Origin: Chitinophaga caseinilytica
GTDB lineage: Bacteria > Bacteroidota > Bacteroidia > Chitinophagales > Chitinophagaceae
DNA: 64,000 bases
Direction: 5' to 3'
Assembly (NCBI RefSeq): GCF_038396765.1
Contig: NZ_CP150096.1
Coordinates: forward strand, 1,347,001 to 1,411,000
Positions 48,940 to 64,000 of the stretch are shown in pieces; within the stretch, counting starts at the first letter, position 1, and the number at the start of each line of letters is the position of its first letter. The notes under the pieces are model-generated. The model searched no databases. It was not told the DNA's origin and saw only the letters and a list, made by a program, of their open reading frames with translations. Both the position numbers and the translations under genes were made by a program.

Positions 48940-51510
48940 TTAATGTTCCACGAGCCCGGGCAGGGTCTGGATAAAAGTGGTGCTCTGGCGGATGACGATC
49001 ATTTTTTGCTGTGCGTCCTTTTTCTGTTTGTCCATCTGGAGTTGATGGTAAATCCGGTCGAGGATGCTGTAATTCAGCAGTGCGAAGATCTTGAAATCGA
49101 GTTTCTGGGCCGTATCCATGGCGGATTCCGCTGCGCGGATGGCTTTGTTGAACTCCTGGTCGTGCAGGTGGATTTGCGCGGCGATGATTTTCTGCAGCGT
49201 TTCGATATGCTTGCCGTTGTAAAATTCGGCAGGATAATGTTTCAGGACACTGTCTACATGGCAGCTCAGCCTTCTCGCCGAATCCACGTCGCCGGTATGG
49301 ATGTGCGCCTGGGCTTTCCAGCAGAGCATCATGAGGCGGAATGGGTCTGTCCGGTTGAAAAGGATACTGGGGTGCTGTTCGAACAGCCGGCTGGTGAACA
49401 GCAGCAGCTGATGGTAGTCGCCCAGGAGGAGGAAAATGAAACAGAGCGCCCGGTATACCGCTTCTTCGCCGGTGGAAAGGGGTTTCTGTTTGCCGAAGTT
49501 CCAGCACGACGCGTAATGATAGATTTTGTCTTTCATCTCTTCGTCGATCTGCCCGAATTTCAGGTATTCGTAGATGAAAAGGAACGCGGCGTAAGGGGTG
49601 ATCCACATTTCTGCCGCGGGCTCGCCCGCACAAAGCTTGCGGATGTTGGTCAGCTCGATTTCGCATTGCTCCGCATCCAGCTGCATCAGCGCCATCACGA
49701 ACAGGTTGCACCGGATCTTCAGCCTGTCGTCTGCCGATTCGGCCATGCTCAGCAGCGTATTGAGCACCTTCCTTTTCTTGAAATGCATGAAATCGTCGGA
49801 AATGAACTGCCCGAACGGGTTTTTCCGGAAATATCCCGGCGGGAAAATGTTGGACAGTTGCTCCTGGTGCGTGCCTTCCTGCTGGTAATGCAAAACGACG
49901 TACTCCAGCAGGTGCGCTTTTTCGGAAGTGGCCAGCGGCAGGCGGAAGAAATCCCGGATGCCGTCTGCCTGCCCACGGGTGATCGCGTAGCGCAACAGCC
50001 ATTTGAATACGGCAATGCGGAACGGGCTCTGCGGGAAATCGGCCAGGACAACTTCAAGTAAAGGTGCGGAAACGTTCTGGCCGTGCAGGTTCACGTAATG
50101 CATGGCCGTGAAGTACTCCAGCAGGAAGTTATGCGCGAAACGGACTTTCACGTTGAACATGATCTCCTGGCTGAGGTTTTCCTCCACTAATATATTGTCT
50201 GCCAACAGCTCCTTGTACGCCGGGAAGTAATCGGCGTTCTGGTTGAGGAGACCGCTTTTGTCGGTATACAAACCGGCCCTTCCCATATCGAGCAGCTTCA
50301 GCAGTTTTTCGATGAGCTGCATTTTGAAAGTGTTGGCCGGTGAATTGAAGACGCGGTTCTGGATGAACCGGGATATGATTTCGAACAGGCTGAGGTTTTC
50401 GTCGACGAATGAATGGTCGGGCGTGTTGCTCAGCTGGCAGAAAAGCTGGAGATAGTAAGGATGGCGGAGCTTCTGGAGAAAGCTGTCGGAAAAGAGGCGG
50501 ACGGTGGCCGGGTCGAAATCGAAGTTATATAATACGGATTTGAGCTCCGTGTCTGTCAGCGGCGGGATATTGGTGTTGGTTTCTTCGTCCATTTCCGTGC
50601 CGAGGTACCAGTATTTGCGGAAGGCGGGGTACTGGTGCGACTGGTGGAAGACCTCGCCCCAGGTGCTGGAGCGGATAGAGAGGATCACTTTTACCCAGGG
50701 GTGGAGCTCGTTGGAATAAACGAAATCTTCCAGTTTATTATAAAGGAGTTTGAGTTTGTCTGCGCTCATGGCGATCTCGTCGAACCCGTCGATGATGAGG
50801 ACGAGCCGGCCAGACCTTTCATCCGCGTGCTTGGTGAAGTATTCGCGGAAGTTGTCGCCGTGGCCGAGGTTCAGTTGGTTATCGAGCCAGGAGGAAAGGG
50901 AGAATCCTTTGAGGAGGAGGCTGCCTGCGGCGTGGGCGTTGATGAACCAGCAGATGTCTTGCGGGCAGGCGGGTGCTCTGCCGAACCAGTAATGTTCCGC
51001 GGCGTGCACGAGGGATGTGGATTTTCCCCAGCCGGCGGGCGCGATGAGTACGGTGGCGGCGTATTTGGATTCGAGGAATTTCTCGATATGCTGGAGGCAA
51101 TAGCCGCGGGAGATGGTGTTATCGAACGGGAGGCCGCAGCGGTTGCGGAGGGTGAGGATCGTGTAGTGGGAAACGGCGGATGCTTTGCGGCGAACGTCGT
51201 CCCATTTCGATGCATCCTGACCTGCGGGGTGATCGAATTGCTTTTTGTAGAAATGGTTTTGAAAATCTTCCCAATCACGGAAGCGGCAATATTGCGCGAG
51301 CGTGTTGAGGGTGTAGCGGGAAAAACTGTGTTGTGTGACGGCGAAACCGAATACCCTTTTGAGGGTAGTTTCACTAACCAGTTTTCCTGTGTGGTTCATA
51401 ATAGCCTGCGTGAGATGCTTGCATTGATTGGGTTGCAGATTCTCGACGCCGAATTGCCGCAATACTTCCGACTGTAAGGTAATAATGAAGTCGTAGGACA
51501 GATCGATCAT
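48940..51510 (-). CDS. NACHT-type STAND ATPase with N-terminal HTH-like domain
   Basis: 856 residues from ATG 51510; a TTG four codons upstream is less likely. The N-terminal ~90 residues (SETTLKRVFGFA, then SRYTLNTLAQYC and WEDF) are a helical, HTH-like domain found on several Bacteroidota proteins. A NACHT-like P-loop NTPase follows: Walker A APAGWGKS (157-164), Walker B LVLIIDGFDE (236-245) and sensor ILSIRSSTWG. The remaining ~550 residues are alpha-helical repeats of TPR/ARM type. Such proteins act as signal-triggered switches; many bacterial NACHT proteins are anti-phage, others regulatory. No effector enzyme domain is visible. Upstream DNA is AT-rich with repeated ATGAAC motifs. Confidence 0.82.
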   Translation of the reverse strand: MIDLSYDFIITLQSEVLRQFGVENLQPNQCKHLTQAIMNHTGKLVSETTLKRVFGFAVTQHSFSRYTLNTLAQYCRFRDWEDFQNHFYKKQFDHPAGQDASKWDDVRRKASAVSHYTILTLRNRCGLPFDNTISRGYCLQHIEKFLESKYAATVLIAPAGWGKSTSLVHAAEHYWFGRAPACPQDICWFINAHAAGSLLLKGFSLSSWLDNQLNLGHGDNFREYFTKHADERSGRLVLIIDGFDEIAMSADKLKLLYNKLEDFVYSNELHPWVKVILSIRSSTWGEVFHQSHQYPAFRKYWYLGTEMDEETNTNIPPLTDTELKSVLYNFDFDPATVRLFSDSFLQKLRHPYYLQLFCQLSNTPDHSFVDENLSLFEIISRFIQNRVFNSPANTFKMQLIEKLLKLLDMGRAGLYTDKSGLLNQNADYFPAYKELLADNILVEENLSQEIMFNVKVRFAHNFLLEYFTAMHYVNLHGQNVSAPLLEVVLADFPQSPFRIAVFKWLLRYAITRGQADGIRDFFRLPLATSEKAHLLEYVVLHYQQEGTHQEQLSNIFPPGYFRKNPFGQFISDDFMHFKKRKVLNTLLSMAESADDRLKIRCNLFVMALMQLDAEQCEIELTNIRKLCAGEPAAEMWITPYAAFLFIYEYLKFGQIDEEMKDKIYHYASCWNFGKQKPLSTGEEAVYRALCFIFLLLGDYHQLLLFTSRLFEQHPSILFNRTDPFRLMMLCWKAQAHIHTGDVDSARRLSCHVDSVLKHYPAEFYNGKHIETLQKIIAAQIHLHDQEFNKAIRAAESAMDTAQKLDFKIFALLNYSILDRIYHQLQMDKQKKDAQQKMIVIRQSTTFIQTLPGLVEH

Positions 51511-51561: not shown

Positions 51562-51933
51562 AAATGAATAAATACGTAAAGGAATGAACGTTTGGATTTC
51601 GGTTTTTAACAAATGAACAAAATGAACAGATGTATGCATAGAGATAAGTTGTTTATAATTATCTGATAATCATGTCAATATAATATACTAACCCCTGCGG
51701 AAATTTTTTTAATAATCTGTGTTCCTAACTATTTTATTAACAGAGAGCATAAAATGAACAGAAAGGATGAACGGTTGATCTATAAATATTTCGATTTGAC
51801 CTCGAGGTGACAAGTTCCATGAATAACCCGCGATACAAAGTATGAACTGCTTTTGTTCAGAATAATAAAAAATGAACAAAATGAACAGGATTTCTAATAA
51901 TGAACGGAACGGTTGTTATGCATTGGAATGAAT
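51562..51933. repeat. Cluster of ATGAAC direct repeats in an AT-rich spacer
   Basis: The 710-bp spacer 51511-52220 has no convincing gene. ATGAAC occurs at 51584, 51613, 51622, 51754, 51768, 51842, 51872, 51881 and 51900, with near matches ATGAAT at 51563 and 51928 and one inverted TGTTCA at 51854. Two pairs are identical doublets, atgaacaaaatgaaca, with 9-bp spacing (51613/51622 and 51872/51881). The clustering on one strand suggests protein-binding sites for control of the NACHT gene or of the giant gene. The function is inferred. Confidence 0.7.
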
Positions 51934-52220: not shown

Positions 52221-55200
52221 ATGAGTTGTAATGTTACTCCGAATTGCTTATGGCGCTTCTTCCTCGTGCTGTCCGCAGCCCTGGTGCTCGGATGGAACGG
52301 AAACGCGCGCGCTGCATCCCCTGCAGCATATAAACAATATTGGTGGTACCCGGAGAAAGCCCCGTCGCCCCTACCCGAAAACTGGTACGGGAGATCCCCG
52401 ATGTTGCATGACGATGCCAGGCTGTCCTGGCTAAATGTGATGTCTATACGTAGTTTCTTCGCCGCCGGGCCCATCTACTCCCGCGGTACTACGGCGTCCA
52501 ACATCCTCAACCCGCTACTCTGTATCGGTTGCTCGATCTCTGACCCCAACTTCGCGATCGATAACGATCCCAACACCGCCGCATTATATAATATGGAGGT
52601 AGGGCTCATCGCAGAAATGGGCCAGCGGATCGTGTTCCCCGGCACCTATGAAGCGGGCGACAGCCTCGTGGTCGACTTCGCGCTGACCACCACCGGTTTG
52701 GTAGACGCTTCGGTGCTGAACAACGTTCGCGTACGCACGTTCCTCGGCAGCGGCAACACCGCCAAACAGGACGTCCGCCTCGGCTCCGCCCTCAACGTAC
52801 AACTGCTCGGCGTTGGATCCACCGGTAAAAGAAGGGCCGTGATCCCCATCACCAGCCAGTTCGACCAGGTGGCCATCACCTTCGGCGGGCTCATCAGCCT
52901 TTCGTACGACATGCAACTCTTCCAGGCCGCCGCCGTGGTGCCTGTAACGATAGCCCCCGCGGCTGATCCGATCATCAGTCCCGCAGGCCAGGCCGCTACC
53001 ATGACGGCCTCCCACCGCCTCGGCGCCGCTACCTTCCGTTGGTACGACGCGCCCACCGGCGGCACCCTGCTGAATACCGGCGCTACCTACGCACCGGTCC
53101 TCACCCGCGGCGTCCATGATTACTATGTAGAAGCCACCACCACCGCCGATGGCCTCACCAGCATACTTCGTACCGGCGTCACCGTAGACGTCGGCGGCGG
53201 GCCCGGACTGCTCTGGAGCTACGGCGACCAGCAGGAAAGCCCCAAGCTCGGCGGCATCTGCGCGCTTTGCTCGGTCACCAATCCCGGTAACGCGATCGAC
53301 GCAGACCCCGCTACCTTCAGCACCATCTCCTCGCCCGTAGGCGTGGCCAGCACGGTTGGCCAGCTGATCAAATTCCCGGGGATTTACCAGTCGGGAGATA
53401 GTATCATCCTCGACCTGGAGCTGCCCGGCGTTCTTTACACGAAATCCATCCTCACCAATATTTCCCTCCAGCCCTACCTCGGCGCCGCCGCCGCAGGGCC
53501 TTCCATCAGCCTCGGCACAGATCTGATCCATGTTCAGGCACTGGGCGTCGGGCTGGGAGGTACCCCCAAATTCCGCGTGAGCGTTCCTGCATCCGCCTCC
53601 TTCGATGGTGTGCAGGTAAACCTCAACGCAGTACTGGCAGAACTTGCCACCCTCCGCGTATATGAAGCAGTAGCCATGATCCCTGTGGCCGTGAGCCCCG
53701 CGGCCCCCGTCGTTCCCTACGGAACTTCGGCCAGCCTCGCCGCCACGGTCCGCCCCGCCGGCGCCACGTTCAACTGGTACACCACGCCCACCGGCGGCTC
53801 CCCAGTGAGCACCAGCGCCACTTTCAACACCCCGAACCTCACCCGCAGCACCACCTACTATGTGGAAGCGGTTGCCAACGGCATCACCAGCTACACCCGC
53901 ACCGCAGTGCCCGTAAGGGTCGGCGGCACCGACGGCCCACTCTGGACGTACGGGGATACGGAAACGAGCCCCGTCCTCAGCGGCGTTTGCGTGGGTTGCT
54001 CCGTTACCAATCCGCAACTGGCGGTTGACCAGGACACTACGACCGCGTCTACCATCAACATCGCCGCAGGCGTACTTTCCAATGCAGGCCAGCTGATCCG
54101 TTTCCCGGGTAATTACCATGCGGGAGACAGCATCATCCTCGACCTGGGCATCCCCGCCGGGCAGTTGCTTTCGCTGCAACTGCTGAGCGGCATCAGGGTA
54201 GAAACATTCAACGGCAGCACCGCCAATAACGATGCGGCAGCTTTCAATACCAGCCTTGCGAACGCATTCGCGCTCGGTATCGGGGTGGGCCCCACCGGCA
54301 AGTTCCGGGTCAGCCTGCCGGTGAATACCGATTTCGATGCGGTTCAGATTTCGCTGGCCCCGCTCATCGGCGGCCTGGCGAACCTGCAGGTGTATGAAGC
54401 TACGGCTACCATTCCCGTGGCGGTGAACCCGGCCATTCAGACCGTTCCCTACGGAACATCCGCCACCATCACTGCCGCGAACCGCCTGGCTACCGCCACT
54501 TTCAACTGGTACACCACGCCCACCGGCGGTTCTCCGGTGTTTACGGGCGCCACTTTCAACACGCCTAACCTCACGGCAAAAGCGCGTTATTATGTGGAAG
54601 CCGCTACGCCAGACGGCAAGAAGAGCTTTACCCGTACCCTCGCCACGGTGAACCTCGGCGGCGGCGCGGGCCCGCTGTGGTCGTACGGTTTTGAAGAAGA
54701 AAGCCCGAAACTTGGCGGCGTTTGCCTGCTCTGCTCCGTATCCGACCCCGGTAACGCGGTAGACGGCAATCCCACCACTTTCAGCACGCTGTCTTCGCCG
54801 GTAGGCGTTGCCAGCACCGTGGGCCAACTCATCAAATTCCCCGGTATCTACCAGTCGGGAGACAGCATCATTCTCGACCTGGAGCTGCCCGGCGTACTCT
54901 ACACCAAATCGATCCTCACCAATATCACCCTGCAACCTTACCTGGGCGCAGCTACGGCAGGGCCGGCCATGAATCTCGGAACAGACCTCATTCATGTGCA
55001 GGCACTGGGAATCGGGCTGGGCGGAACGCCGAAGTTCCGTGTCAGCATGCCGGTAACTACTTCGTTCGACGCGGTACAGGTAAACCTGAACGCGGTACTC
55101 GCCGAACTGGCTACCCTCCGCATATATGAAGCCGTGGCCATGATACCCGTGTCCGTAACCCCGAACCCGGCCGTGGTGCCGTATGGAACGAGTGCGAGCC

Positions 55201-58200
55201 TCAGTGCAACGGTTCGTCCTGCAGGGGCTACGTTCAACTGGTACACCGCACCTACGGGCGGCTCGCCGGTGGGAACGGGCGCTACGTTCAACTCGCCGAA
55301 CCTGACCCGCAGCACCACTTATTATGTAGAAGCAACTGCAGGCGGCGTTACCAGCTATGTGCGGACGGCCGTTCCTGTGAGGGTTGGCGGCGCCGACGGG
55401 CCGCTCTGGTCTTATGGCGATAATGAAACCAGTCCTGTATTGAGCGGTATCTGCCTCGGCTGCGCCGTCAATAATCCCGGGCTGGCGGTAGACGAAGACA
55501 CGACCACCGCTTCCACGATCACGATCCCGCTGGGCGTGCTTTCCAATGCCGGTCAGTTGATCCGCTTCCCCGGGAATTATCATCCGGGCGACAGCATCAT
55601 CCTCGACCTTGGGATTCCTGCCGGTCAGCTGCTTTCCCTGAACCTGCTGAACAGCATCCGGATAGAAACTTTCAACGGACCCACTTCCAACAACGACGCG
55701 GCGGCGTTTAGCACAGCGCTGGCCAATGCGCAGGTACTGGGCATTCCTGTAGGGCCTACTGGCAAGTTCAGGGTGACATTGCCTGCAGGAGCAGACTTCG
55801 ATGCCGTACAGATTTCGCTGGCCCCGGTAGTAGGCGGCCTCAGCAATCTGCAGGTCTTCGAAGCCACGGCCATGGTGCCGCTGACGGTTGCACCTTCTGT
55901 ACAAACCGTTCCGCTGAATACTTCTGCTACTATTGGCGCTACCATTCGCCTGGGCAACGCCACGGTGAACTGGTACACCACACCCACCGGCGGCTCGCCG
56001 GTAGGAACGGGCGCCAGCTTCAATACACCTAATCTTACCCGCCAGACGTTCTACTGGGCGGAAGCCAGTACACCGGATGGCAAGAAGAGCTTCGTGCGCA
56101 CAATGGCTACGGTGAACGTGGGCGGTGGCCCCGGTCCGCTGTGGACGTACGGCGACCAGCAGGCAGGGCCTGTGATCGGCGGTGTGTGCGTAGGTTGCAG
56201 CATTACCGATCCCGCGAAAGCGGTGGACGAAGACACGACCACGTCTTCCCTCCTCAGCATGCCCCTGGGCGCGCTTGGCAGCATTTCGCAGGTGATCCAC
56301 TTCCCCGGCGTTTACCAGGCTGGCGATAGCATCGCGCTGTTCCTGGAGCTGCCCGATCAGCTGTTTAGTCTTTCTGCGTTAGGTGGCCTCACCGCGCAGA
56401 CCTATCTGAATAATGTTCCGAACGGAGACGTGATTGCGCTGGACAACAGTCTTGTAAGATTGGAGCCCCTGGGCCTCGGTGTAGGCAGCACGGGGAAATT
56501 CCGCGTGACGTTCCCGGTAGGAGCGAACTTCGATGGTGTGAGCATCGGAACAACCGCCGTACTGGCCGGCCTGAACGGGCTGCGCGTATACGAAGCGGTT
56601 GCCTTCATGCCGCTGACCATCACGCCGCCGGCACCGGTAATCGCATCCGGCGCCACCGCAACGATGACCGCCAGCGTTCGCGCACCAGGCGCTACCTATT
56701 CCTGGTTCACGGAACCGAAAGGCGGCACGGCGGTTGGCAATGCCGCGGCATTTACTACTCCGACCCTTACGAGAACGAAACAATATTTCGCGGAAGCCTT
56801 CACGCCGGCAGACGGCAAGCGGAGCTTCTCGCGCACGGCTGCCACGGTGACCGTGAACGGCGGCCCCGGCCCGTTGTGGACGTACGGCGACCTGCAGCAG
56901 AGCCCGCTGATCGGCGGTATTTGCCTGGGTTGCGGCGTTTCGAACCCCAACCGTGCGGTAGACCAGGATACGACCACGGCATCGCAGATCACGATGACGG
57001 TGGGCGCACTCGGTAGTGTAGGTCAATTGATCAAATTCCCGGGTACTTACCAGGCGGGCGACAGCATCGCGTTGTTCCTGGGCGTGCCCAACCAGTTGGT
57101 GAATGCTCAGTTGCTTTCCGGCATCAGGGTGGAAACCTATAGCGGCAACACGCCGAACGGTAATCCCATTACGCTCGATGCGGATGTCGCAGACCTCCAA
57201 TTGCTGGGGCTGGACGTAACCGGCGATGTGGCCAAATTCAAAGTGGTGATTCCGGCTACCACGGGCTTCGATGGCGTTCGGGTAGACCTGAACGGTGTGG
57301 TGGCCGCGCTCGGCAGCCTGAACGTATATGAAGCGGCGGCGTTCGTTCCCGTAACGGTTGCTCCGCCGAAGGCTACGGTTCCATTCGGTAATACCCAAAC
57401 TTTCAATGCTTCGATCCGGTTCCCGGGCGCAACGTTCAGTTGGTACGAAACCCCGACCGGCGGCGTTCCCGTGGCAACAACGGCTACCTTCACCACGCCC
57501 ACGCTGCTGAAGGATAAAACCTATTATGTTCAGGCGGCTACGCCGGATGGCCTCACCAGTTTCATCCGTACCAGCGTTCCCGTCACGGTAACGGTTGGCC
57601 CGGCCAGTCCTGACCTGTCTTGCGGCCGTGGCGCTACTTCCACTGCTACCGGCACCGTAGGCCTTTGCCTGTTGTGCGGTGTAGATGATGCGGCACTGGC
57701 GGTGGATGCGAACCCTGAAACGGCTTCGTCGCTGCACTTGCCGGTAGGCTTGCTGGGCGGTTCCGTTTACCAGCGGATCTCCTTCCCGACCGTTAGCACG
57801 CCCGGCGACTCGTTGCGTGTAGTGGTGGGCTCCACCACGGGCCTGCTCGATCTGAACCTGCTTGCGGGTACAACTGTCCGTCCGCGGATCGGTACCACTG
57901 AAAACGCGGCAGATGTGAAAACCCTGAACAGTGGCCTGCTGAACCTGCAGCTGCTGAACGGTGGCACGCGCAGTGTGATATCTTTCGTTCCCACAGCTGC
58001 ATTCGACAACGTGGAAATCAGGCTTACGGGTGTGGTTTCCGCGCTGAATGAAATCAATGTATTCTACGTTCAACAAATAACCGCCCGTCCGACGATCGCC
58101 GCCGATACGGTGAACGTCTGCACCGGTCAGACCGCAACCCTGAACGCCACTGTGCCCGCGGGCAATACCGTGCGCTGGTACAGCACGGCTACAGGCGGAA

Positions 58201-61200
58201 CGCCGCTGGCAACGGGCGCATCGTTCGTTACCCCGGCCATCAGCGCCAATACGGTATACTACGCCGAAGCGGTATCCGGCACTACCAATTGCCCGAGCGA
58301 AACGAGGGTGCCGGTAGTTGTACAGGTAGGCCTGGCGGAAGTAACGGTGACCGCCAATTCCGTGACCATCCCGCAGGGCAGCACGGCTACCTTCACGGTG
58401 AACAGCCCGAACCCGGCGCTGACTTACAAATGGTACGACGTACCCGTTGGCGGTACGGCAGTATTTACGGGCCCCAGCTTCACAACGCCCGCGCTGCAAT
58501 CAACCACCACTTATTATGTGGAAGCAACGAACGCAACGGGTTGCGCGAGCGCCCAGCGTGTAGCGGTCGTAGCCAACGTGACCATCACGAACCCGGATGT
58601 ACCCTGCGATGTAGCTACTACACAGGTGAGCAGCGTGAACGGCATCTGTATCGGATGCTTCGTAGATAACCAGGGTGCGGCGGTAGACGCCAGTACGACC
58701 TCCGCTTCGTCGCTGCATGTTGTTGCAGGATTGCTTGGTGCTTACGCACAACAGACGCTCATCTTCCCGTCGTCCAGCGACGCGGGCGACAGCGTTCGCA
58801 TCCTCATATCCTTCCCGTCATCGCTGGCGGATGTGGCACTGTTGGGTGGAACGCAGGTGGCTACCTATAACGGTACTACTTTCAACAACGATCGCGTGGC
58901 GATCAACAACAGCCTGGTTAACCTGCGGCTCCTCGCCGGCAATACCCAGGCAATTATCGCCTTCAAGCCCAACGCGGTGTTCGACCGTGTGGAAGTTCGC
59001 CTCAATTCCGGCGTGGCCACACTGATCTCCGCGCTGAACATACATTATGCGCAACGCCTCATCGCGGTGCCGGATGTAACACCTGATACGGTGACAACCT
59101 GCGCCGGCGGTACGGCTACGTTCAACGTGGCGCCGAAACCGAATACCCTGTTCCGCTGGTATACGACACCTGCGGGCGGTACGCCGATCGCAACGGGCAC
59201 TTCGTTTACGACCGGGCCTGTTTCGGTGGATTCGGTGTTCTATGTGGAAGCGGTGAAAACCTCCACCAATTGCGCGAACCCCGTTAGAACGAAAGCATTC
59301 GTGAAGATGGGTGCAGCACCGGCCGCGCCGACCGTGGAAAGCACGACGGTGACTACCTGCGAGGGAACTACGGCAACGCTTCGCGCTACCGCTCCTGCAG
59401 GCGCTACCTTCAACTGGTATACAACGGCCACGGGCGGTACATCGGTATTCACCGGTGCCAACTTCACCACGCCGGTGCTCGACAGCTCGGTGATCTATTA
59501 TGTGGAAGGTGTTTCTGCCGGTGGATGCGCCAGCGCAGCGAGAACGGCCGTTCAGGTGAACGTGACCGAGCGCCCGGCAGTACCCGATGTTACGCCGGCG
59601 AGTGCCGCGGTTTGCGTGGGTGGCAATGCAACCCTCACCGCCACATCTACAACGGCGGGTGTCGACTTCAAATGGTATAGCGACGCGGGCCTTACCAACC
59701 TGGTATTCACCGGGCCGGTATTCAATACCCCTGCGATCACATCCAATACAACCTATTACGTAGTGGCCGCCAGCGGTCAATGTGTGAGCACCACCGCCCG
59801 TACGGTGAACGTACTGGTGGGAGCTCCGCCGGCTGCGCCGATCGTTTCCATCAACCCGGCTTCCGGTATGGTGGAATACGGTCAAACCGCAACGCTGACC
59901 ATCTCCACACCTCAGGCAGGCGCCACTTATAACTGGTACCTGCAACCCACCGGCGGAAGCCCTGTCCATACAGGCAATTCCTTCACCACGCCGCAACTCA
60001 CGAACGCTACCACGTTCTATGCAGAAACGGTGTCTGCCGGCGGATGCGCCAGCAGCACGCGCACGGCGGTGACGGTGAACGTGAACCGCGACTTCAACCC
60101 GGGTTGCGACTTCGCCAACCAGGCTACTTCCAGCATCAACGGCGTTTGCCTGTTGTGCGCTGTGAATAATCCTGACAACGCGGTAGACAACGATACGACC
60201 AACTTCGCCAATATCTCCATCCCTGTAGGTGTGGCCGGCGATGTAACGTATAACCTCAACTTCCCGTCGCTCGCAGCAGCCGGCGATACTGTGAAACTGC
60301 GTTTCGCAACCCCCAGCGGTCTGCTGGACGCTACCGCGCTTGGCCGCATCGAAATCACTTCGTTCAACGGCAACACATCCAACAACGACACCAGGGCGCT
60401 GAACAGTGCGCTGCTGCGTGTAGAACTGTTGGGCGGTGCCAACCAGCAGGTAGTGCTCTTCAGGCCGACCGGTGCGTACAACCGCATCCAGCTGAGGGTT
60501 CGCAGCCTGGTAGGCGCGCTGATGAACGTAAATGTTTATTATGCGAACAGGGTACTGGCTGCGCCGACCATCACGGCCAGCGACAGCACCATCTGCGCGG
60601 GCAGCACAACGGTGCTGACGGCAGTTGCGTCCGACAGTGCAACGGTACGCTGGTATACCCAGGCAACGGGTGGCACGCCGGTGTTCACCGGCAAGGTGTT
60701 CACCACACCGGCGCTCAACGCTACGACCACTTACTATGCTGAAAGCTTCCGCGCATCTACGAATTGCCCGAACCCGGCACGTACGGCGTTTACGGTGAAC
60801 GTACTGCAGATCCCGCCGTCTCCTGCCATCATCGCAGGCGATACCACGATCTGCGCGGGCAACAACGCGATCCTGAAAGCTCGTCCGTCTGACCCGTCGC
60901 TCACCATTCGCTGGTTCGCTGCGGCATCCGGCGGTGCGCCGCTGAGCCTGGACAGTGTGTTCACCACACCTGCCCTTTCGGCCAATACTACTTATTATGT
61001 AGAAGCATACAACGGTACCTGCGGCTCCGCGACCCGCACGTCTGTAACAGTGACGGTAAGCACGGCTCCGCCGGCGCCTGTCCTGGAAGCAGACAGCGTG
61101 GGTATCTGCGCCGGCGCCAACGCAACGCTGCGTGTAACCGCACCGGCAGCTGGCGTCGTGTATCGCTGGTATACGACACTCACGGGCGGTACGCCGGTGT

Positions 61201-64000
61201 TTGAGGGTGCTACCTTCATCACGCCTGCACTGAACGGCACCACGATTTATTATGTGGAAGCCATCCGCTCAACAGGTGGTTGTCCGAACGCGGGCGGCAG
61301 GGTATCTGCTACCGTAACGGTGGGCACCACGCCTGCAGCGCCGACCGTGGAAAATGCAACGGTTGCGACCTGTGCGGGCACTTCGGCCACGCTGAGGGCA
61401 ACTGCGCCTGCAGGGGCTACCTTCAGATGGTATACCCAGCAAAGCGGCGGTACGCCGGTGTTTACGGGAGCCACTTACATCACGGCCGCGCTCGACAGTT
61501 CCGTATCTTACTATGTGGAAGCGGTATCTGCCGGCGGTTGCGCCAGCGCAACGAGAACGGCCGTTCAGGTGAACGTGAGCGAACGCCCGGCTGTGCCAGA
61601 CGTTACTCCGGGCAATGCTTCTGTCTGCGTAGGTTCACCTGCAGTGCTGACCGCTACCAGCACCACACCTGGTGTTGACTTCAAATGGTACAGTGATGCC
61701 GGCCTCACGAACCTCGTGTTCACAGGTGCCGTATTCACGACCCCGGCGCTCGGCGCGAACACTACTTATTATGTGGTAGCCGTGAGCGGCCAGTGCACCA
61801 GCGCAACGCCGCGTACGGTAACCGTAACGGCCGAAGCATTGCCTGCATCGCCGGCGGTGACCATCGTTCCGGCAGGCGGCATGATCAACTACGGTCAAAC
61901 CGCGATCCTGAGCATCACCACCCCGAACCCTGCGCATACCTATCGCTGGTATACACAGGCATCCGGCGGTACGGCGTTCTTTACGGGTACATCCTTCACC
62001 ACACCGCAACTTGCGAATACGACGGTTTACTATGTGGAAGCCGTAACGGCTGGCGGTTGCGCGAGCGCGAACAGAACGGCGGTTACGATCAACGTGAACC
62101 GCGACTTCAACCCGGGCTGCGACTTCGCCAATGCGGCAACGTCCACCATCAACGGGGTTTGCCTGCTCTGCGCGGTGAACAACCCTGATAACGCGGTAGA
62201 CAACGATACGACCAACTTCGCCAATATCTCCATACCGGTAGGTGTGGCTGGCGATGTTACCTATAACCTGAACTTCCCGGGCCTCGCCGCCGCAGGCGAT
62301 ACGGTGAAACTGCGTTTCGCCACCCCGGGCGGCTTGCTCGATGCCACGGCGCTGGGCAGGATCGAGATCACTTCGTTTAACGGTGCAACGTCGAACGGCG
62401 ACACCAAAGCGCTGAACAGCGCGCTGCTGCGTGTTGAAGTACTGGGCGGAGCCAACCAGCAGGTGGTGCTCTTCAGCCCGGGTGCTCCGTACACCAGTGT
62501 GCAAATCCGGGTCCGCAGCCTGGTGGGCGCGCTGATGAATGTGAACGTGTACTATGCGAACAGGGTGCTCGCTTCACCGACCATCGCCACCAACAACGTG
62601 ACGATCTGCGCCGGTACCAGCACTACACTGACCGCTACTGCATCCGACAGTGCGACCGTTCGCTGGTACACCCAGGCAACGGGCGGTACGCCGGTATTCG
62701 TGGGTAAAGTGTTCAACACACCTGTGCTGAATACGACCACTACCTACTATGCGGAAGCCTATCGCGCATCTACGGCTTGCGCCAACCCGATCCGCACACA
62801 GGCCACGGTGAATGTATTGCCTGTTCCGCCGGCTCCGGCCATCATCGCCGGAGACACGACCATCTGCATCGGCAATAACGCCGTGCTGAAGGCCCGTCCG
62901 GCTAACCCGGCCCATACGATCCGCTGGTTCGCTGCAGCATCCGGCGGCACGGCGCTCAGCCTCGACAGTGTGTTCACTACGCCGAACCTCACTGCGAATA
63001 CGACTTATTATGCGGAAGCATACAACGGTACCTGCGGAACTGCTACCCGAGTACCCGTAACCGTAACGGTGGCCACGCTGCCGCCGGCCCCGGTACTGGT
63101 AGCCGACAGCATCTCCATCTGCACCGGCGCAACGGGTACGCTCAGCGTACAGAACCCTGTAGCTGGTGTGGTGTACCGCTGGTACAATGTAATATCCGGC
63201 GGCACGCCGATCTTCACGGGCAACAGCTTCGTGACACCGGCGCTGACCAACACGACCATTTACTATGTGGAAGCAGTCCGCTCCGCAGGCGGTTGCCCGA
63301 ACGCGGGCGGTCGTGTAGCGGCCACTGTGAATGTGAACCAGGCTCCGGCGACACCGGTTGTGACCAACGCTACTACCGCGGTATGTCTTGGTAAGACAGC
63401 CACGGTAAGCGTTCGCAACCCGCAGGCCGGCATCACATACAGGTGGTATGCGGCTCCGTCGGGTGGTGCGCCGATCTTCACCGGCCCCGTATTCAATACC
63501 CCGGCGATCACCGATACGATTTCCTACTTCGTGGATGCCGTTGGCATCGGCGGATGCACCAGTTCTGCAAGGGCCAAAGCGCATGTGACGGTTAACGCAC
63601 TGCCGACGGCCCCGACGGTACAGGCTACCAGCTTGTCTGTTTGTTTGGGTGGAAGGGATACGCTCCGCGTATTGAACCCCACCGCAGGCATTACCTATAA
63701 CTGGTACGATCAACCGGGCGGCACGCTCCTGTCTACAGGCGCCAACTTCCCGATCGGTCCGGTGAATGCAGCCGATTCCTTCTACGTGCAGGCGGTGAAC
63801 GCTTCCGGATGCGGTAGCGCTGCCCTCACAAGGGTTACCATCGCCGTTGCCGCCAACCCGGTTGCGCCGGTAGTGGCAGGCAGCACGTCGATCTGCCCGG
63901 GCGATACGATCCGTCTTTCGATCCAGAACCCGGCTGCGGGTGTGACCTACAGGTGGTTCAACGCCCCCGCGGGCGGTAACCTCCTGGGAACAGGCAGCAC
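52221..64000 (+). CDS. Giant multi-domain Ig_7 surface protein (adhesin-like), continues past the window
   Basis: One plus-strand frame runs from ATG 52221 to the right edge with no stop: 3,926 codons so far. Signal peptide about 1-31 (LVLSAALVLGWNGNARA). About 25 Ig-like modules follow the Ig_7/CHU_C-associated pattern (F-x-WYTTPTGGSPV, then TGATFNTPNLT and TYYVEA). Interspersed are eleven ~150-residue modules opening with G(I/V)CxxC, with first Cys at residues 101, 347, 590, 835, 1078, 1323, 1568, 1816, 2143, 2643 and 3314. The two types alternate about every 245 residues up to ~1816, then Ig modules dominate. Such proteins are usually cell-surface adhesins exported by the type IX system; the sorting domain would lie beyond the window. 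Long open frames on the opposite strand here are antisense shadows. Confidence 0.9.
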   Translation, partial: MSCNVTPNCLWRFFLVLSAALVLGWNGNARAASPAAYKQYWWYPEKAPSPLPENWYGRSPMLHDDARLSWLNVMSIRSFFAAGPIYSRGTTASNILNPLLCIGCSISDPNFAIDNDPNTAALYNMEVGLIAEMGQRIVFPGTYEAGDSLVVDFALTTTGLVDASVLNNVRVRTFLGSGNTAKQDVRLGSALNVQLLGVGSTGKRRAVIPITSQFDQVAITFGGLISLSYDMQLFQAAAVVPVTIAPAADPIISPAGQAATMTASHRLGAATFRWYDAPTGGTLLNTGATYAPVLTRGVHDYYVEATTTADGLTSILRTGVTVDVGGGPGLLWSYGDQQESPKLGGICALCSVTNPGNAIDADPATFSTISSPVGVASTVGQLIKFPGIYQSGDSIILDLELPGVLYTKSILTNISLQPYLGAAAAGPSISLGTDLIHVQALGVGLGGTPKFRVSVPASASFDGVQVNLNAVLAELATLRVYEAVAMIPVAVSPAAPVVPYGTSASLAATVRPAGATFNWYTTPTGGSPVSTSATFNTPNLTRSTTYYVEAVANGITSYTRTAVPVRVGGTDGPLWTYGDTETSPVLSGVCVGCSVTNPQLAVDQDTTTASTINIAAGVLSNAGQLIRFPGNYHAGDSIILDLGIPAGQLLSLQLLSGIRVETFNGSTANNDAAAFNTSLANAFALGIGVGPTGKFRVSLPVNTDFDAVQISLAPLIGGLANLQVYEATATIPVAVNPAIQTVPYGTSATITAANRLATATFNWYTTPTGGSPVFTGATFNTPNLTAKARYYVEAATPDGKKSFTRTLATVNLGGGAGPLWSYGFEEESPKLGGVCLLCSVSDPGNAVDGNPTTFSTLSSPVGVASTVGQLIKFPGIYQSGDSIILDLELPGVLYTKSILTNITLQPYLGAATAGPAMNLGTDLIHVQALGIGLGGTPKFRVSMPVTTSFDAVQVNLNAVLAELATLRIYEAVAMIPVSVTPNPAVVPYGTSASLSATVRPAGATFNWYTAPTGGSPVGTGATFNSPNLTRSTTYYVEATAGGVTSYVRTAVPVRVGGADGPLWSYGDNETSPVLSGICLGCAVNNPGLAVDEDTTTASTITIPLGVLSNAGQLIRFPGNYHPGDSIILDLGIPAGQLLSLNLLNSIRIETFNGPTSNNDAAAFSTALANAQVLGIPVGPTGKFRVTLPAGADFDAVQISLAPVVGGLSNLQVFEATAMVPLTVAPSVQTVPLNTSATIGATIRLGNATVNWYTTPTGGSPVGTGASFNTPNLTRQTFYWAEASTPDGKKSFVRTMATVNVGGGPGPLWTYGDQQAGPVIGGVCVGCSITDPAKAVDEDTTTSSLLSMPLGALGSISQVIHFPGVYQAGDSIALFLELPDQLFSLSALGGLTAQTYLNNVPNGDVIALDNSLVRLEPLGLGVGSTGKFRVTFPVGANFDGVSIGTTAVLAGLNGLRVYEAVAFMPLTITPPAPVIASGATATMTASVRAPGATYSWFTEPKGGTAVGNAAAFTTPTLTRTKQYFAEAFTPADGKRSFSRTAATVTVNGGPGPLWTYGDLQQSPLIGGICLGCGVSNPNRAVDQDTTTASQITMTVGALGSVGQLIKFPGTYQAGDSIALFLGVPNQLVNAQLLSGIRVETYSGNTPNGNPITLDADVADLQLLGLDVTGDVAKFKVVIPATTGFDGVRVDLNGVVAALGSLNVYEAAAFVPVTVAPPKATVPFGNTQTFNASIRFPGATFSWYETPTGGVPVATTATFTTPTLLKDKTYYVQAATPDGLTSFIRTSVPVTVTVGPASPDLSCGRGATSTATGTVGLCLLCGVDDAALAVDANPETASSLHLPVGLLGGSVYQRISFPTVSTPGDSLRVVVGSTTGLLDLNLLAGTTVRPRIGTTENAADVKTLNSGLLNLQLLNGGTRSVISFVPTAAFDNVEIRLTGVVSALNEINVFYVQQITARPTIAADTVNVCTGQTATLNATVPAGNTVRWYSTATGGTPLATGASFVTPAISANTVYYAEAVSGTTNCPSETRVPVVVQVGLAEVTVTANSVTIPQGSTATFTVNSPNPALTYKWYDVPVGGTAVFTGPSFTTPALQSTTTYYVEATNATGCASAQRVAVVANVTITNPDVPCDVATTQVSSVNGICIGCFVDNQGAAVDASTTSASSLHVVAGLLGAYAQQTLIFPSSSDAGDSVRILISFPSSLADVALLGGTQVATYNGTTFNNDRVAINNSLVNLRLLAGNTQAIIAFKPNAVFDRVEVRLNSGVATLISALNIHYAQRLIAVPDVTPDTVTTCAGGTATFNVAPKPNTLFRWYTTPAGGTPIATGTSFTTGPVSVDSVFYVEAVKTSTNCANPVRTKAFVKMGAAPAAPTVESTTVTTCEGTTATLRATAPAGATFNWYTTATGGTSVFTGANFTTPVLDSSVIYYVEGVSAGGCASAARTAVQVNVTERPAVPDVTPASAAVCVGGNATLTATSTTAGVDFKWYSDAGLTNLVFTGPVFNTPAITSNTTYYVVAASGQCVSTTARTVNVLVGAPPAAPIVSINPASGMVEYGQTATLTISTPQAGATYNWYLQPTGGSPVHTGNSFTTPQLTNATTFYAETVSAGGCASSTRTAVTVNVNRDFNPGCDFANQATSSINGVCLLCAVNNPDNAVDNDTTNFANISIPVGVAGDVTYNLNFPSLAAAGDTVKLRFATPSGLLDATALGRIEITSFNGNTSNNDTRALNSALLRVELLGGANQQVVLFRPTGAYNRIQLRVRSLVGALMNVNVYYANRVLAAPTITASDSTICAGSTTVLTAVASDSATVRWYTQATGGTPVFTGKVFTTPALNATTTYYAESFRASTNCPNPARTAFTVNVLQIPPSPAIIAGDTTICAGNNAILKARPSDPSLTIRWFAAASGGAPLSLDSVFTTPALSANTTYYVEAYNGTCGSATRTSVTVTVSTAPPAPVLEADSVGICAGANATLRVTAPAAGVVYRWYTTLTGGTPVFEGATFITPALNGTTIYYVEAIRSTGGCPNAGGRVSATVTVGTTPAAPTVENATVATCAGTSATLRATAPAGATFRWYTQQSGGTPVFTGATYITAALDSSVSYYVEAVSAGGCASATRTAVQVNVSERPAVPDVTPGNASVCVGSPAVLTATSTTPGVDFKWYSDAGLTNLVFTGAVFTTPALGANTTYYVVAVSGQCTSATPRTVTVTAEALPASPAVTIVPAGGMINYGQTAILSITTPNPAHTYRWYTQASGGTAFFTGTSFTTPQLANTTVYYVEAVTAGGCASANRTAVTINVNRDFNPGCDFANAATSTINGVCLLCAVNNPDNAVDNDTTNFANISIPVGVAGDVTYNLNFPGLAAAGDTVKLRFATPGGLLDATALGRIEITSFNGATSNGDTKALNSALLRVEVLGGANQQVVLFSPGAPYTSVQIRVRSLVGALMNVNVYYANRVLASPTIATNNVTICAGTSTTLTATASDSATVRWYTQATGGTPVFVGKVFNTPVLNTTTTYYAEAYRASTACANPIRTQATVNVLPVPPAPAIIAGDTTICIGNNAVLKARPANPAHTIRWFAAASGGTALSLDSVFTTPNLTANTTYYAEAYNGTCGTATRVPVTVTVATLPPAPVLVADSISICTGATGTLSVQNPVAGVVYRWYNVISGGTPIFTGNSFVTPALTNTTIYYVEAVRSAGGCPNAGGRVAATVNVNQAPATPVVTNATTAVCLGKTATVSVRNPQAGITYRWYAAPSGGAPIFTGPVFNTPAITDTISYFVDAVGIGGCTSSARAKAHVTVNALPTAPTVQATSLSVCLGGRDTLRVLNPTAGITYNWYDQPGGTLLSTGANFPIGPVNAADSFYVQAVNASGCGSAALTRVTIAVAANPVAPVVAGSTSICPGDTIRLSIQNPAAGVTYRWFNAPAGGNLLGTGS
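53222..56200 (+). repeat. Higher-order repeats of alternating CxxC and Ig_7 modules, N-terminal half
   Basis: Module pairs recur every 729-735 bp, and alternate pairs match best, giving a 1,464-bp unit. For example, the stretch coding LYTKSILTNI...QPYLGA appears near 53440 and 54900, and the one coding AGQLIRFPGNYH near 54090 and 55550. The copies differ mainly at synonymous sites. Confidence 0.8.
59330..63350 (+). repeat. Two tandem 2,013-bp super-repeats inside the giant gene
   Basis: Three Ig modules, one CxxC module and three Ig modules in a row occur twice in the same order. Matching points are 59,410 and 61,425, then 60,147 and 62,160 (Cys codons, exactly 2,013 bp apart), then 61,160 and 63,175. 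Stretches such as gacttcaacccgggc and the one coding NNPDNAVDNDTTNFANISIP are almost identical in both. This points to a recent in-frame duplication of 671 codons. Confidence 0.85.

Follow-up and report, generated by a model that had tools for sequence, protein, structure and literature searches.

In Flavobacterium johnsoniae the carrier protein SprF ends in two cysteines (Cys-x-Cys) that serve the formation of a disulfide with C343 of GldK, coupling the adhesin to the gliding track; this bond is needed for sustained helical movement, and the second tail cysteine has been interpreted as an intramolecular donor (PMC12635249). From the adhesins of that bacterium SprB and Fjoh_4750 move, Fjoh_1123 moves in a small part of the cells and Fjoh_3952 is static, and a PorE-like gene is present in the operon of the static Fjoh_3952, not in those of the moving adhesins (PMC12618676). 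In Porphyromonas gingivalis, PorP contacts both PorE and a type B protein (PMC9143113); PorE binds peptidoglycan (PMC7192894) and has been discussed as a wall anchor (PMC12618676). Here we analyze a stretch of 64,000 nucleotides from Chitinophaga caseinilytica (hereafter the window), positions 1,347,001 to 1,411,000 of the forward strand of NZ_CP150096.1 (assembly GCF_038396765.1; G000:C1:1347001-1411000 in our coordinates), the one contig of 6,517,700 bases that makes up the genome. At the right end of the window begins a giant gene for a putative surface protein of the type IX secretion system (T9SS), followed by a PorP/SprF-like carrier gene and a PorE-like gene. The carrier has one cysteine in its C-terminal tail, and the PorE-like proteins placed beside such carriers have cysteines in a loop of their propeller. 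A putative direct carrier-PorE disulfide would explain this matched pair with the fewest assumptions.

The giant gene and its two neighbours

The giant gene starts with the ATG at 52221 and remains open as a single uninterrupted plus-strand frame of 5,265 codons, 3,926 of them inside the window (52221..64000), until a stop at window-equivalent position 68018, that is, 4,018 bases to the right of the window's end. A preliminary description of the window, made from its letters, had claimed a plus-strand frame without a stop through 64000, and this is confirmed. It had left the C-terminus to a rightward extension, and the extension leads to a stop preceded by a type B sorting domain, recognized by PF13585 (CHU_C; 65.4 bits, cut-off 27, E 5.2e-18) and by TIGR04131 (46.2 bits, cut-off 35, E 3.9e-12), not to a stop lacking one. 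The N-terminus resembles a signal peptide (residues 1-31, 52221..52313, plus strand), with a hydrophobic stretch and an ARA/AS-like site near residue 31, as judged by eye from the translation. We describe it as a putative giant T9SS type B adhesin gene.

The carrier gene (window-equivalent 68115-69125, plus strand, beyond the window; 336 residues) begins 96 bases after the giant gene. Its product ends in FICPRL, with a single cysteine at position −4 and no Cys-x-Cys, as in SprF, in the C-terminal tail; no solved structure was found for it at a meaningful E. It is followed by the PorE-like gene (69150-71162, plus strand, also beyond the window; 670 residues), whose product gives Pfam matches over the cut-offs for PD40 and OmpA, and under them for TPR and the carboxypeptidase-regulatory-like domain (CRD). 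The order of these matches, TPR, propeller, CRD and OmpA, is that of PorE, and is the one described for PG1058 (PMC5053529). Against the NCBIfam model for PorE, NF052230, the protein aligns over residues 32-641 with 308.6 bits, below the curated cut-off of 600, and for that reason we call it PorE-like. Its AlphaFold2 model (pLDDT 86.4, pTM 0.68) consists of helices, then strands, then an alpha/beta part.

The giant gene itself adds a member to a known kind, that of fibrillar type B adhesins of the T9SS ending in CHU_C (PMC8286594), with which it shares a stalk of repeated Ig-like domains, the CHU_C C-terminus and the occurrence in Bacteroidota, although here the likely adhesive module has no Pfam model. 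As in SprB/SprF, a giant type B substrate has a PorP/SprF carrier directly downstream and a cysteine in the carrier tail (PMC12635249, PMC12618676), but here there is one tail cysteine, a PorE-like gene and 11 CxxC modules resembling carbohydrate-binding modules (CBM), and the likeness does not imply sequence orthology. The order adhesin, carrier, PorE-like gene is that of Fjoh_3952/3951/3950 (PMC12618676); the difference lies in the tail cysteine present here, as judged from carriers of the genomes G293 and G258 described below and not from the tail of Fjoh_3951. In PG1035/PorP/PorE, likened here by architecture, a type B protein likewise sits on a barrel of the PorP family, to which a protein with TPR, propeller, CRD and OmpA domains is bound, whereas a covalent carrier-PorE link is not reported in the available text of the two articles (PMC9143113, PMC5053529). 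Since a single tail cysteine together with a PorE-like neighbour matches neither described configuration, the anchoring arrangement would be a new variant.

Because a type B sorting domain is combined with an adjacent carrier gene, the product of the giant gene can be taken, with good support, as a very large surface protein exported by the T9SS. It is probably an adhesin, and an attachment role fits because CBM/lectin-like modules sit on a stalk of Ig_7 modules. From the earlier suggestion of a surface adhesin linked to attachment or gliding, the surface location stands, given the sorting domain and the carrier, and attachment agrees with the modules; gliding seems less likely than attachment, because there is a PorE-like gene in the locus and a single tail cysteine in place of Cys-x-Cys.

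The genome encodes eight proteins of the PorP/SprF family, four with a cysteine at −4 and four without tail cysteine. Of its 18 type B sorting domains, 17 of which exceed the cut-off, five belong to frames of >3,900 codons, that of the giant gene among them. The other four giant frames, at C1:4434160, 4270036, 3306808 and 2803159, have 5,674, 4,188, 4,824 and 3,930 codons, respectively; those at 3306808 and 2803159 have a carrier directly downstream, in both cases without tail cysteine.

Matched cysteines in carrier tails and propeller loops

The distribution of the tail cysteine was followed in a family sample of 195 genomes, 144 of which match the carrier at 1e-40. The 30 family loci that were read are high scorers, approximately one per genome and with the locus of the giant gene included, and do not constitute a random sample. 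All 30 carriers have the cysteine at −4 (29 in CPRL or CPRF, one in CARL); a type B domain is located upstream of the carrier in 29/30, and a PorE-like gene follows it, inside the 1.5 kb read, in 26/30. As a control, the best-scoring matches to the general carrier family model in 119 genomes of the class contained a tail cysteine in 0/30. G293 and G258, genomes from a different family, gave a list of 23 carrier matches. Eleven of them have a PorE-like neighbour and none of these has a tail cysteine (0/11), whereas the seven with two-cysteine tails (Cys-x-Cys in six, Cys-x-x-Cys in one) have no PorE-like neighbour within reach (0/7); from the remainder, two have neither, L204 and L208 lie in long frames that do not end as carrier tails, and L209 is under the cut-off. 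This pattern agrees with the division between static and moving adhesins in the literature. The locus of the giant gene and its relatives constitute, on the sequences compared, a third kind, in which a PorE-like neighbour is accompanied by a single tail cysteine. The genome G272, from a third family, has this third kind once, plus two single-cysteine carriers without PorE-like neighbour.

In the AlphaFold2 model of the PorE-like protein the adjacent C447 and C448 are located in the loop that joins two strands of the last propeller blade. Of the 120 relatives listed from 1,901, all 120 have C447 and 119 have C448. Cysteines in this loop accompany the Cys-tailed carriers in all the readable rows of two sets, 25/25 and 14/14, one of the 14 rows ending after its first loop cysteine. 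In the first set, 5/30 loci gave no readable frame, as L053, L056, L058 and L068 have no PorE-like gene and the frame of L065 is too short; L160 was not included. Beside Cys-less carriers, a cysteine at aligned positions 446-448 occurs in 0/30 PorE-like proteins, one of these 30 rows having a cysteine inside aligned positions 438-456 and none at 446-448. The 101-carrier set comprises 39 carriers with one tail cysteine, seven with two and 55 with none. In it, a Cys-less carrier is found beside a PorE-like protein with loop cysteines in 0/30 cases, and a two-cysteine carrier beside a PorE-like gene in 0/7. Three Cys-tail loci that a pattern count had scored as having a PorE-like protein without cysteine are apparent mismatches, which dissolve on reading the frames: L065 ends before the loop, L144 ends in the loop after one cysteine, and L160 reads GETCCNDIY. 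A motif pattern for the loop falls on an earlier blade in many of the rows, and the counts make no use of it. The adjacent pair is not a trait special to the group of the giant gene, a possibility that was considered and rejected, since the alignment shows two or three spaced cysteines in other orders.

That the partners carry two or three loop cysteines while the second tail cysteine is absent from the carrier admits a different reading, in which the loop pair would be a disulfide donor replacing the second tail cysteine of SprF, itself read as an intramolecular donor (PMC12635249), and the carrier would go on to GldK or stay, depending on conditions. The present data give no sign of transfer, and the PorE of P. 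gingivalis binds peptidoglycan (PMC7192894) and is discussed as an anchor to the wall (PMC12618676); we consider such a donor role improbable.

Inheritance has also to be taken into account, as the tree of 67 carriers places the 33 Cys tails on one side of one branch, with support 100/99. Were shared ancestry the only cause of the match, the loop cysteines would bond internally, for which there is room given the adjacent cysteines together with C468 and C544, the job of the tail cysteine would be unrelated, and anchoring would be non-covalent. However, in the tree of the 101 carriers the Cys-less L139, L140 and L142, whose partners have no loop cysteines, are nested inside the Cys-tail clade, and therefore the tree shows tail and loop differing jointly at two or more places, unless the PorE-like gene has been replaced there. 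A search with the L139 carrier in 395 genomes gave 29 other loci, 17 with both tail and loop cysteines, six with neither, four partial and two without a PorE-like gene; none was discordant. Eight of the 29 had been read previously (L216, L217, L218, L223, L230, L233, L236 and L239), and the 21 new loci comprise 13 with both, four with neither, three partial and one without a PorE-like gene. Moreover, the genomes G217 and G295 contain one locus of each kind apiece, each matched. We regard common descent alone as an improbable account of the pairing.

Static anchoring or gliding

The explanation that we favor, to which as a whole we give about an even chance, is that of a T9SS adhesin tied statically to the cell wall through a carrier-PorE disulfide. 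The giant protein would be exported by Sec and then by the T9SS through its type B C-terminal domain, and would be kept at the outer membrane by the neighbouring PorP/SprF-like carrier. Its C-terminal run of Ig_7 modules would form the stalk, and the N-terminal two thirds, in which CxxC and Ig_7 modules alternate, a many-valent binding part, probably for a polysaccharide ligand. In the periplasm the cysteine at −4 of the carrier tail would be disulfide-bonded to the C447/C448 pair of the loop, and the OmpA domain of the PorE-like protein should hold peptidoglycan, so that the fibre would be tied, via the outer membrane, to the wall.

A more general form of this proposal, which we put at slightly less than even, is that many Bacteroidia bond single-cysteine (CPRL) carriers to the cysteine-bearing propeller loop of a dedicated PorE-like protein. 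This would be a third mode of fixing, a covalent chain from the carrier of the surface fibre to a peptidoglycan-binding protein, next to that of Cys-less carriers beside Cys-less PorE proteins and that of two-cysteine carriers riding the gliding track. The loci compared here provide a simple sequence code, made up of the carrier's tail residue and the loop of the partner PorE, that predicts pairs and bears on how type B T9SS adhesins are held and on whether they glide or stay put. If the proposal is true, disulfides would both couple adhesins to the moving track, as reported in 2025, and fix them to the wall. Searches of an open-access library turned up the report on the SprF-GldK bond (PMC12635249) and no title concerning a disulfide between carrier and PorE.

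The main rival is a gliding adhesin, whose carrier tail cysteine would bond the GldK cysteine so that the fibre rides the track like SprB, the PorE-like protein having some other role. There is a precedent for this in the SprF tail cysteine bonded to GldK C343 in F. johnsoniae (PMC12635249), Cys tails also occur without PorE neighbours, and the genome contains a GldJ-like frame (350.5 bits and a further piece with 77.4, against a cut-off of 458.2) and a GldK that keeps the cysteine in a KGCL motif. However, SprF has Cys-x-Cys and the moving adhesins have no PorE gene in the operon, while here there is one cysteine and a PorE-like gene; likewise, in G293 and G258 the PorE-adjacent carriers lack a tail cysteine (11/11) and the two-cysteine carriers lack a PorE-like neighbour (7/7). 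Gliding also leaves the matched loop cysteines of the PorE-like proteins unexplained, and in this assembly an interruption breaks the gldK frame close to its start. Taken together, we hold a gliding adhesin to be doubtful.

The interruption lies in gldK itself (L038, C1:812435-813592, minus strand), where the start with the lipoprotein signal and the body are in different frames; the GldK match reaches 553.8 bits, over the cut-off, but a stop falls within it and its start is read in a different frame. Either the assembly is in error here or the lesion is real and should block secretion, a caveat that applies to the anchoring and gliding readings alike. As to the genus, the available text of PMC13070061 contains no statement that Chitinophaga pinensis glides.

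Several observations weigh against a disulfide-based wall anchor. The acceptor cysteine of GldK is conserved in the genome itself, KGCL being aligned to RGCF of PorK. The loop cysteines could bond each other, C468 or C544, the last two being kept in 120/120 of the listed relatives. Cys-tailed carriers are found without a PorE-like neighbour in reach in 3/4 cases in this genome, in 4/30 family loci and in 8/39 single-cysteine carriers of the 101-carrier set, a number that includes those three and one partial locus; the tail cysteine of such carriers must have another partner, or none. The Cys-less PorE-like genes within the Cys clade might be replacements. The tail and loop cysteines have largely descended together, so that the pairing is backed by few independent changes. 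Finally, the rule that associates PorE with static adhesins in F. johnsoniae is based on few adhesins.

Modules, relatives and surroundings of the giant gene

The eleven CxxC modules, a number that had been claimed beforehand and is borne out by the 11 motifs counted, all within the window, have about 165 residues each, with the CxxC near the module start, and extend over residues 79-3460. On the plus strand they occupy 52455..52961, 53193..53699, 53922..54428, 54657..55163, 55386..55892, 56121..56627, 56856..57362, 57600..58106, 58581..59087, 60081..60587 and, the last one, 62094..62600. The AlphaFold2 model of the second module (53193..53699; pLDDT 83.4, pTM 0.82) is a CBM/F-lectin-like beta sandwich, the predicted fold resembling those of CBM32, fucose-binding modules, F-type lectins and other galactose-binding-like beta sandwiches. 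In Foldseek, CBM and F-lectin structures rank high, with TM-scores <0.6 and 5-15% sequence identity among the matches listed; because many unrelated structures tie with them, no family is named for the module, and one outside the matches listed is conceivable too. Unlike CBM32 and the F-lectins, the module has a CxxC pair near its N-terminus, and sugar binding is only putative. No PDB chain came up as a sequence relative at E up to 1; a Pfam search at E up to 10 yielded three matches, found in 1/11 modules apiece and including CshA_NR2 at 0.087; and NCBIfam had no match over the first 2,500 residues of the protein. The model thus points to a lectin-like domain without Pfam model, which is present in 120/120 relatives among the matches listed. 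The only other gene found with such modules is in L097:3352-6512 (minus strand, C1:5747351-5750511), where three small neighbouring genes have signal-peptide-like starts, as seen by eye; the first contains two diverged CxxC-type modules plus Ig_7, and the third CHU_C plus DUF11.

Ig_7 modules (PF19081) lie between and after the CxxC modules (52962..64000, plus strand), with 25 cores in the window, matching the estimate of about 25 in the preliminary description, and 38 in the whole protein (37 found by pattern and one, missed by the pattern, read from the translation). Pfam recognizes 12 + 27 stretches in the two parts scanned (651.8 and 1975.1 bits, over the gathering score), one module being split by the cut. 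Past the eleventh CxxC module only Ig_7, an fn3-like stretch (E 0.006, under the cut-off) and the type B sorting domain were recognized.

A protein of Chitinophaga rhizosphaerae has 98% identity to the giant protein over the searched region, and 7.3 kb of DNA around the start of the giant gene align with a locus of that species at 94.7% identity. This closest relative (97.7% identical) is without one block of 257 residues, equal to three Ig_7 modules, of which the giant protein (L009) has one copy more within residues 3949-4815. In two more relatives (86.5% and 87.3%) the same part is shorter by a block of 257 or 258 residues, and the one with 87.3% is also without 485 residues at its start. 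Since the relatives differ by such blocks, the length of the stalk seems to vary in units of three Ig_7 modules, although collapsed assembly repeats could mimic this. DNA self-comparison of the giant gene shows higher-order repeats, with offsets including 488, 671 and 257 residues.

Long antisense frames had been pointed out and are indeed present, the longest having 1,238 codons (52584..56300, minus strand); since the codon usage of the plus-strand gene explains this frame, it is not called as a gene. The giant gene has 16 codons that give aligned antisense stops in 5,265 (3 TTA, 4 CTA and 9 TCA). When its own synonymous codons were shuffled, an antisense stop-free run equal to or longer than the observed one of 1,264 codons appeared in 19.4% of 1,000 trials, whereas with codons drawn by the usage in 16 other frames on the plus strand of the window it appeared in 0/1,000. 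Hence the giant gene shuns TTA, CTA and TCA more than its neighbours, which we take as a stronger codon bias, and owing to this bias the antisense frames are no surprise. Antisense genes beneath the giant gene were rejected for this reason, codon usage explaining the frames; the evidence of modules, sorting domain and gene order is all on the plus strand.

Upstream of the giant gene lies a divergent gene of about 856 codons (48940-51510, minus strand), with a NACHT match under the cut-off (E 0.001), whose sequence is conserved next to the giant gene in other Chitinophaga; the NACHT-like product is a possible regulator. Of the nine AATGAAC words on the plus strand of the window, seven fall between both genes, at window positions 51583-51905, some of them paired at a distance of 9 bases. 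Over the whole window the count, 13 against 9.15 expected, is not above chance, and it is the clustering that stands out. The words precede the gene in 15/23 related loci; there are none in the other eight, where the gene start is perhaps misplaced. The exact double site is present at nine places in the genome (control 0), two of them before the giant gene and one just upstream of the L097 genes. A regulon is not claimed, as others of these sites lie inside or between unrelated genes. Two of the loci with a double site, L171 and L172 (C1:4200644 and 4210275), are about 9.6 kb apart and have the same frame list, including frames that by eye we presume to be RadC-like.
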